A stretch of DNA of 52,391 nucleotides from Enterococcus viikkiensis (GTDB lineage: Bacteria > Bacillota > Bacilli > Lactobacillales > Enterococcaceae): contig NZ_BJDW01000016.1 in assembly GCF_005405345.1 (NCBI RefSeq), forward strand, positions 1 to 52,391. Reading direction: 5' to 3'. The notes below the pieces were generated by a model, which was not told the DNA's origin, did no database searches, and saw nothing but the letters and a program-made list of their open reading frames with translations. The position numbers and the translations under genes were made by a program. Positions 12,346 to 13,544 of the stretch are shown here, one piece after another. Position 1 is the stretch's first letter. Each line of letters opens with the position of its first letter.

Positions 12346-12636
12346 CTAATACGCGAAGCTTTCACTTAATTTTTTTAAATCAGAAATTTTTTCTGCGACT
12401 TTGTTATAATTCGACGGATACCGGTCGACTGCTTGGCTAACAAACAAGTCCCGGGTATGATCAAACTCTTCTAAAAAAGCATCATAGCGATCATTTTGTT
12501 CTCGTAGTTCCTCGCTTCTTAACATTAAGGCATTTTGATACGCATCGTTTAAAAAAATCAACACTGCTTCTTTATCAAACCGAACCTTATAAGCTGATTC
12601 CAACCGTTCGATCATTGCGTATGTCCATTTGTTCAT
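12346..12636 (-). CDS. Small conserved-looking protein upstream of the MFS gene, function unknown
   Basis: A 96-residue soluble, mostly helical protein (MNKWTYAMIERLE...) with many aromatic and charged residues and no membrane segment or Cys motif. I do not recognise the family. AAGGAG is 8-10 nt before the ATG. It is the first gene of the operon with the MFS transporter. A TATAAT on the minus strand at 12708-12713 and a palindrome at 12664-12680 lie in its leader, suggesting local regulation. It could be a small accessory or sensor protein, but nothing in the sequence decides this. Confidence 0.75.
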   Translation of the reverse strand: MNKWTYAMIERLESAYKVRFDKEAVLIFLNDAYQNALMLRSEELREQNDRYDAFLEEFDHTRDLFVSQAVDRYPSNYNKVAEKISDLKKLSESFAY

Positions 12637-12663: not shown

Positions 12664-12680
12664 ATTCTAGCGACTAGAAT
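12664..12680. promoter_or_regulatory. Palindromic candidate operator in the leader of the MFS operon
   Basis: ATTCTAG-CGA-CTAGAAT is a perfect palindrome of 7-bp arms. It lies just downstream of a minus-strand TATAAT (12708-12713), where a repressor would block transcription. The protein that binds it is unknown. Confidence 0.4.
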
Positions 12681-12786
12681 AGTTGGTTTGTTTGACTTAC
12701 CTGACCGATTATACGGATAAAAAGAAAAGAAAAAATCAGTTTTCATATTAGGAAAAGTCTTTGCAAAATCCTAGCAAAAAAAGACA

Positions 12787-12829
12787 TTAACATTTGTTAA
12801 TATCTTTTCTATACATATTTTTTTATAAA
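12787..12829 (+). promoter_or_regulatory. PrfA-box promoter of the Crp/Fnr-family regulator
   Basis: TTAACATTTGTTAA (12787-12800) matches the 14-bp PrfA-box consensus TTAACANNTGTTAA at every defined position. It is followed by exactly 23 bases and then TATAAA (12824-12829). PrfA-activated promoters in Listeria have 22-23 bp between box and -10, so both sequence and spacing fit an activator site near -41. It drives the PrfA-like gene itself, suggesting autoregulation. Confidence 0.8.
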
Positions 12830-12887
12830 ACTAATCTGTGCATATGATATGATAATCTCAGCAAACAACGGAAGGAATACAGAAAAG

Positions 12888-13544
12888 TTGAATAATATAG
12901 CCTTAACAGACTACTTAGCACAAAAAAATTTCCCTATCGTCACGAAAGAATACAAAAAATATTTACTCTATGAAGGAATTCAAGATCACCACGTCTACAT
13001 TTTAAAGAGTGGCGTGATCAAAACCAGTGTCATCTCAAAAGACGGCAGAGAATTCAATTTAGAATACATTAACGATCTCGAAGTAGTCTCAATATTAAAG
13101 GACGAATATTCTCAATTTATCGACGCTCCCTTCAATATTCGCGTAGAATCACCCAAAGCAGAACTTTATCAAATCGATCGTGTCGAATTTTGGAAAGACA
13201 TTAATCAGAATTTTGATCTGCAAATTTATGTTAAAAACTATTATCGTGAACGTCTGATGAAATCCATGAAGCGTACTCAGCAAATGCTGATGAATGGGAA
13301 ATTCGGCGCCGTTTGTACCCAAATCTATGATTTATATGACAAATTTGGAATTGAAGTACATGAAGGGGTTTTGATTGATTTTGTTGTCACAAATGAAGAT
13401 ATTGCCCATTTTTGCGGGATCAATGCGGCAAGTAGTGTCAGCCGTATCATGAATCAGTTAAAGAGTTGTGGCGCAATAAAGATGCACAACCGAAAAATAT
13501 TAGTTAAAAATATTGAATTAATTAAGGACAATATTATTTTTTAA
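12888..13544 (+). CDS. Crp/Fnr-family transcriptional regulator, PrfA/Ers-like
   Basis: About 218 residues: an N-terminal cyclic-nucleotide-binding-like beta barrel (about residues 25-110), a long dimer helix, and a C-terminal winged helix with VTNEDIAHFCGINAASSVSR (the Crp-type recognition helix). There are no Fnr-type Cys clusters. It resembles PrfA and E. faecalis Ers, which act on virulence, stress and metabolism genes. The start is uncertain. TTG at 12888 has GGAAGGA 11 nt upstream, whereas an in-frame ATG at 12849 has no ribosome site. Its promoter contains a perfect PrfA-box consensus, and it is divergent from an MFS operon that is its likely target. Confidence 0.85.
   Translation: MNNIALTDYLAQKNFPIVTKEYKKYLLYEGIQDHHVYILKSGVIKTSVISKDGREFNLEYINDLEVVSILKDEYSQFIDAPFNIRVESPKAELYQIDRVEFWKDINQNFDLQIYVKNYYRERLMKSMKRTQQMLMNGKFGAVCTQIYDLYDKFGIEVHEGVLIDFVVTNEDIAHFCGINAASSVSRIMNQLKSCGAIKMHNRKILVKNIELIKDNIIF

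Follow-up and report, generated by a model that had tools for sequence, protein, structure and literature searches.

An Ers-type control region with a 13-bp register between the regulator box and a divergent promoter in enterococci and Listeria

In Lactiplantibacillus plantarum, the regulator LarR reportedly has a Lar box as its binding site, and two half-Lar boxes ahead of the larA -35 are said to promote its multimerisation, which is reportedly stimulated by L-lactate and opposed by D-lactate. In Enterococcus faecalis, the Ers box is given as AACATTTGTTG in a review, and EF0082-83 and EF0104-6 are reported to be activated by Ers (PMC2824692). EF0082 was called a putative glycerol uptake protein in one paper; its expression is reported to fall with bicarbonate, which leaves ers unaffected, and both EF0082 and the lmo1251 gene of Listeria are reported to fall in mannose-PTS mutants, a response which indicates that other regulators act here. 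Promoters activated by PrfA of Listeria monocytogenes are described as having the box centred near -41.5, with the consensus tTAACanntGTtAa (PMC3443378). In the literature searched no regulator study of lmo1251 was found, and the open-licence papers covered yielded none that connects 13-bp repeats to Ers or to PrfA-like regulators, a result that does not prove their absence.

The stretch of DNA analysed here (the window) comprises 52,391 nucleotides of an Enterococcus viikkiensis contig (NZ_BJDW01000016.1). The original prediction described a perfect PrfA-type box in this window, located 23 bp before a TATAAA sequence and in front of a PrfA/Ers-type regulator gene that is divergent from an MFS operon. 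Each of these elements was recovered: the box is present where it was claimed, the coordinates give the 23-bp distance, the divergent operon consists of a 96-aa ORF followed by an MFS gene of 410 aa, and the PrfA/Ers type of the downstream gene is confirmed by sequence and predicted fold (table 1).

Table 1. Features of the regulator-MFS intergenic region and the flanking genes in the window.
Feature	Position	Strand	Remarks
MFS transporter, 410 aa	11100-12332	-	MFS_1 2.7e-54; orthologue of EF0082 (57%)
96-aa ORF, first gene of the divergent operon	12346-12636	-	
Predicted -10 TATAAT of the divergent operon	12708-12713	-	Conserved in genus orthologues; gap to box 73
Ladder region, box to divergent promoter	12735-12786	-	
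Ladder units 2-5	12774-12786, 12761-12773, 12748-12760, 12735-12747		Counted from the -10
Full palindromic box (Ers/PrfA/Lar-type), ladder unit 1	12787-12800		TTAACATTTGTTAA
Box core AACATTTGTT	12789-12798		Identical in 12/12 aligned genus orthologues
TATAAA, -10 of the original prediction	12824-12829	+	Gap 23 after box
Extended -10 TGATATGAT, second candidate regulator promoter	12845-12853	+	
Shine-Dalgarno-like GGAAGG	12870-12875	+	Conserved in genus alignment
Ers orthologue, likely TTG start	12888-13544	+	ORF-program ATG start 12849

The regulator, its partner operon and the conserved box

The regulator belongs to the PrfA group of the Crp/Fnr superfamily. HTH_Crp_2 scored above its cut-off (30.2 vs 27) and cNMP_binding below it (21.1 vs 27.5). 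PrfA was the nearest sequence match in the PDB (4.6e-14) and also the best fold match of the predicted structure (TM 0.81-0.84 at 23-25% identity, model pLDDT 87.5). The single match in the E. faecalis genome, which was taken as such on an exact EF0082 primer match found in 1 of 105 family genomes (G021), is Ers (EF0074, 217 aa) with 71% identity. In the phylogenetic tree the regulator falls among the Enterococcus orthologues, and it is assigned as an Ers orthologue, a protein of the Ers/lmo1251 type. The closest relative in L. monocytogenes is 58.6% identical, is encoded divergently from an MFS gene near treR, and is presumably Lmo1251, judged by its context and gene order. The annotated PrfA of L. 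monocytogenes is 26.7% identical and has a gene of its own in Listeria genomes where the orthologue of the regulator is present too; on this comparison the regulator was rejected as a PrfA orthologue.

Relatives of the locus were collected by a scan of named genomes, from which the best 80 of 175 were retained. A divergent MFS homologue is kept in 72 of the 80 fetched loci (L027-L098), and these syntenic loci span Enterococcus, Listeria, Vagococcus, Bavariicoccus, Bacillus, and Terrilactibacillus. A phylum-wide search of 398 genomes returned only distant relatives outside the order, which were left out of the analysis. The family matches of the MFS protein are general only, and the 96-aa ORF, with a homologue in 30 of the 72 syntenic loci, has no Pfam or NCBIfam family above cut-off. 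One genome that lacks a close Ers orthologue has a 67% homologue of this ORF (L116:7751-8023), which neighbours another PrfA-group paralogue. A perfect palindrome (TTCTAGCGACTAGAA, 12665-12679) lies in the leader of the divergent operon and is partly kept in relatives. Three loci (L028, L030, L031) have some 140 bp more between the divergent promoter and the 96-aa ORF than their sister species. CodY-box-like AATTTTCWGAAAATT sequences directly follow the MFS -10 in EF0082 (L113:8361-8570) and several relatives.

The core pattern AACAWWTGTT is present in exact form in 52 of the 72 orthologous intergenic regions (0.3 expected from mononucleotide shuffles), and the pattern or one of seven near variants in 71 of them (0.9 expected from the same shuffles). 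The locus without a core under the permissive pattern is L088; L071 contains Ns. The perfect 14-mer was found in 7 of the 72 regions. Within the 2.55-Mb genome, the perfect TTAACANNTGTTAA occurs once, and with at most one mismatch there are 16 sites vs 21 for a reversed-pattern control, so that the 14-mer is not enriched; in the window alone, 4 sites with at most two mismatches compare with 6.2 expected. The shorter AACAWWTGTT is twice as frequent in the genome as its reversed control (34 vs 17 sites). Besides the window box, 32 of these sites were inspected (the 34th, at a contig edge, was left out) and 28 of them fall within ORFs of at least 100 codons. The four sites outside long ORFs are L185, L199, L203, and L207, the last three near contig ends. 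Near position 583 of L203, AACATATGTT precedes a TATAAT whose distance is one base less than the n = 1 value defined below; a 132-aa ORF follows, and no other site in the genome is a stronger candidate for a second target. The original prediction had proposed a genome-wide motif scan and a comparison with orthologous loci: the former lends no support in this genome to a regulon that could be found by motif search, while the latter upholds the box. The case for box function is made by its conservation across orthologues and not by its rarity in the genome.

Candidate promoters and likely translation start of the regulator

The hexamer following the box was compared with TATAAT at 50 gaps (10-59) in 71 loci. 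Gap 22 gave the best match of all, with a mean of 3.52 out of 6 matches against a mean of 2.18 over all gaps; at least four matches are present in 41 loci and at least five in 19. In 42 representatives the preference for gap 22 reached z = 4.0, calculated with a weight matrix built from assumed frequencies. A box followed by a putative -10 at gap 22 corresponds to the PrfA arrangement, and the part of the original prediction that places a PrfA-type box and a correctly spaced -10 before a PrfA/Ers-type gene is supported, with this layout kept in the orthologues. The window itself fits the definition of a PrfA-type promoter in sequence and spacing, but its TATAAA is not conserved within the avium clade (L027-L037), where it is shared by E. 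devriesei (L027) only; the other ten orthologues of the clade have AATCAA, GATCAA, GACTAA, GATCTG, or TATCCA at gap 22.

The second candidate promoter of the regulator is an extended -10 (TGnTAnnnT at core+56) that is present in 11 out of 11 avium-clade orthologues and in none of the 60 other loci. Its hexamer, at core+59, falls one base before the n = 3 position, perhaps by chance. The ATG start chosen by the ORF program overlaps this extended -10, the upstream frame is interrupted by a stop in two relatives, and the TTG codon stands 12 nt after GGAAGG; for these reasons TTG is the likelier start of the regulator.

The 13-bp register towards the divergent promoter

On the MFS side, the distance from the start of the box core to the divergent -10 is 13n+21 bases with n = 3-6, corresponding to box-to--10 gaps of 48, 61, 73-74, and 86-87. 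A total of 68 TATANT hexamers were found 40-105 nt from the core in 71 sequences, and 65 of them are located on the register (54) or one base short of it (11), leaving 3 elsewhere. Among 30 representatives all 27 TATANT hexamers fit (22 on register, 5 one short, 0 elsewhere). A TATANT is present in the expected range in 65 of the 71 readable loci; the other six (L047, L061, L062, L063, L064, and L082) have weaker in-register hexamers instead. For three of these, L064 (initially 43), L047, and L063 (the latter two initially without a -10), the fits to n = 4, 4, and 5 via TAAACT, TAAACT, and TACGCT, respectively, were chosen with the register already known, and the three loci were omitted from the tree. 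No good -35 is present at 17 bp from the divergent TATAAT in the window.

The gap between the box and the divergent -10 is occupied by box-like half-sites in phase. Lag autocorrelation over 33 representatives peaks at 13 (z 6.2) and 26 (z 4.1), with all other lags of 4-30 at z 2.2 or below. Interior 13-mers in phase match AACATTTGTT at 5.42 out of 10 positions compared with 3.51 (sd 0.22) when rotated, and 0 of 5000 rotations scored as high (30 loci); except in the larA set described below, the register had been noticed before it was tested, and the shuffles ignore relatedness. Half-boxes between the full box and the target promoter are present as a sequence pattern in the family, referred to here as a ladder. 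The second and last ladder units retain half-box letters across genera. The last unit is located 24 nt before the -10, which is the place of the full box at the regulator's own promoter, and resembles the box by half only before passing into a T run.

In a regulator tree of 70 rows, nine changes of rung number are required, and the starred branches alone force five changes for the n = 5 class; the register is therefore not one inherited length. Within the Listeriaceae, n = 4 in all 23 readable loci with a core, from species that overlap with the best-80 set; these lmo1251-type loci also have a TATGAT-like hexamer at gap 22. The gap of 73 in the window corresponds to n = 5, one base short. Other members of the avium clade are similar, with gaps of 73 in 8 of the 11 loci, 86 in one, and 74 in two. 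The half-sites are weak in this clade: phase 0 counted from the -10 side scores 4.33 in the window and 4.68 in the clade, and the highest scores (5.67 and 5.34, respectively) come from the phase shifted by one base, which is the register counted from the box. A step of 13 bp amounts to some 1.24 turns of the helix, so that adjacent units face in different directions and full dimers on them should clash; the constraint looks like a sequence register and not like one of helix face. Paralogues were also checked for a ladder, with a TATACT at 46 in L022 and L026 and nothing clear in L021, L023, and L106.

The E. faecalis locus is a natural split of the divergent pair. The orthologous genes share the core and the divergent orientation with the window, where AACATTTGTTA agrees with the Ers box, a consensus taken from a review, in 10 of 11 letters; they differ in that ers and EF0082 (411 aa) are about 3.7 kb apart and have a box each. 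The EF0082 side combines the box with a ladder of n = 4, whereas the box on the ers side stands alone with TTAAAT at gap 22, and no TATANT was found within 120 nt on its far side. Among the AACATTTGTT sites of E. faecalis, 30 of 34 were inspected, and eight, including those of ers and EF0082, are located outside long ORFs. Between the two genes (L113:4830-8564), which are still divergent, lie a dehydrogenase gene and genes that are presumably Asp23-like.

The same register was found opposite lactate genes. Lactobacillus relatives of the regulator sit opposite larABCD, and Metaclostridioides mangenotii has a PrfA-group regulator opposite an L-lactate dehydrogenase gene with n = 2 in two genomes (L099, 4808-5749, and L104); LarA and L-LDH were identified above NCBIfam cut-offs. 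In six larA promoters TATAAC stands at core+60 or core+73 (n = 3 or 4), and the -10 pattern for larA was widened to TATAN[TC] after TATAAC had been seen in these loci. In 23 further larA loci the core is present within one mismatch in 20 and absent from 3, and 18 of the 20 have TATAN[TC] on the register or one short (n = 2, 3, or 4), although two of the 18 (L247 and L252) repeat the earlier-seen L103 and L022. Counted by hexamers, 20 of 26 fit and 6 are off register; a rival -10, TATAAT at 52, is present in three larA loci. The LarR system, of the same family as the regulator, shares the box, the in-phase half-boxes, and the 13n+21 register at larA, and differs in that its partner is nickel lactate racemase instead of an MFS protein and in its rung numbers (n = 2-4).

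Proposed multimerisation along the ladder and alternative explanations

We consider it probable that the intergenic region is an Ers/LarR-type control region in which the activator multimerises along the 13-bp ladder to the divergent promoter. This reading draws on the orthology, the box conservation, the gap-22 preference, the 13-bp register, and the in-phase half-sites, all shown by the sequences, from which we infer binding, multimerisation, activation, and a signal. A PrfA-like dimer would bind the full box and would there occupy a class II position for the promoter of its own gene (22-23 bp before the -10, n = 1); autoactivation of the regulator is suggested by this geometry only. On the MFS side, further regulator subunits would join in register along the half-boxes every 13 bp, until the last subunit takes up an equivalent class II position upstream of the MFS operon's -10 and recruits RNA polymerase. 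The number of rungs would evolve by whole 13-bp units (n = 3-6 for MFS, 2 for ldh, and 2-4 for larA). The ladder is the pattern that a LarR-like multimerisation would need; it may be a family-wide variant of the half-box mechanism reported for LarR, with the ladder as its new element.

Four alternative explanations were considered. A single dimer at the full box might serve both promoters, acting on the MFS promoter from a class I distance, with the 13-bp pattern left as an idle relic of tandem duplication. The box-to-start distances of about -67 to -106 lie within the known range of Crp class I sites, degeneracy affects many interior units (those of the window's clade above all), and the length changes in whole units, as repeat slippage would give. 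However, class I spacing follows the helical repeat in steps of about 10.5 and the steps here are 13. Furthermore, the last and second units keep their half-box letters across genera, and, single bases aside, only indels of 13-bp units are seen, which is not what neutral drift in T-rich DNA would produce. We regard this explanation as unlikely.

It is improbable that another protein reads the 13-bp repeats or a promoter-proximal ACAAAnnGCAT while the Ers-type regulator touches the full box only. The half-likeness of the last unit and its T run would suit such a protein, as would the cre site that has been proposed in the EF0082 promoter (PMC2941500), but it is the box consensus itself that the interior units match in phase, and an identical register is found at larA and ldh, which face regulators from the same family. 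Autorepression, with TTAACA (12787-12792) as -35 and TATACA (12810-12815) as -10 blocked by the box-bound regulator, is very improbable: the two hexamers are separated by exactly 17 bp in the window, but TATACA is not kept in all orthologues, which have GAACAT, TATGTG, GACATA, and others in its place. We give hardly any credence to the PrfA-style virulence switch of the original prediction (box, 23-bp spacing, and autoactivation conserved from PrfA of Listeria and governing a regulon here), for despite the perfect 14-mer, the TATAAA at 23, and PrfA as the nearest solved relative, the Listeria orthologue is not PrfA, the virulence-gene context of PrfA is absent here, the 14-mer is unenriched, 28 of the 32 inspected core sites lie in ORFs, and TATAAA is lost in 10 of 11 clade orthologues.

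The region is best read not as a virulence switch but as the principal site of a metabolic gene pair that enterococci and Listeria share. For the proposed multimerisation along the ladder we lean, as a lead only, towards L-lactate or a related metabolite as the signal, because relatives of the regulator sit opposite lactate racemase and L-lactate dehydrogenase genes. A wider scheme can be put forward tentatively, in which 13n+21 would be the grammar of the PrfA-group activators of Firmicutes as a whole (n = 1 for PrfA-like autoregulation and n = 2-6 for polymerising regulators). The Ers-MFS pair would then form a switch linked to lactate or a related metabolite, which the MFS protein would transport, and the number of rungs would tune cooperativity.

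If true, multimerisation along the ladder would give a countable rule for where the whole activator group acts and would account for the restriction of divergent-spacing changes to 13-bp steps. Two consequences become testable, the polymerisation of Ers-type proteins on DNA and a lactate response of the Ers/EF0082 module. Ers, the lmo1251-type regulator, LarR, and the PrfA spacing would then be joined in one scheme.
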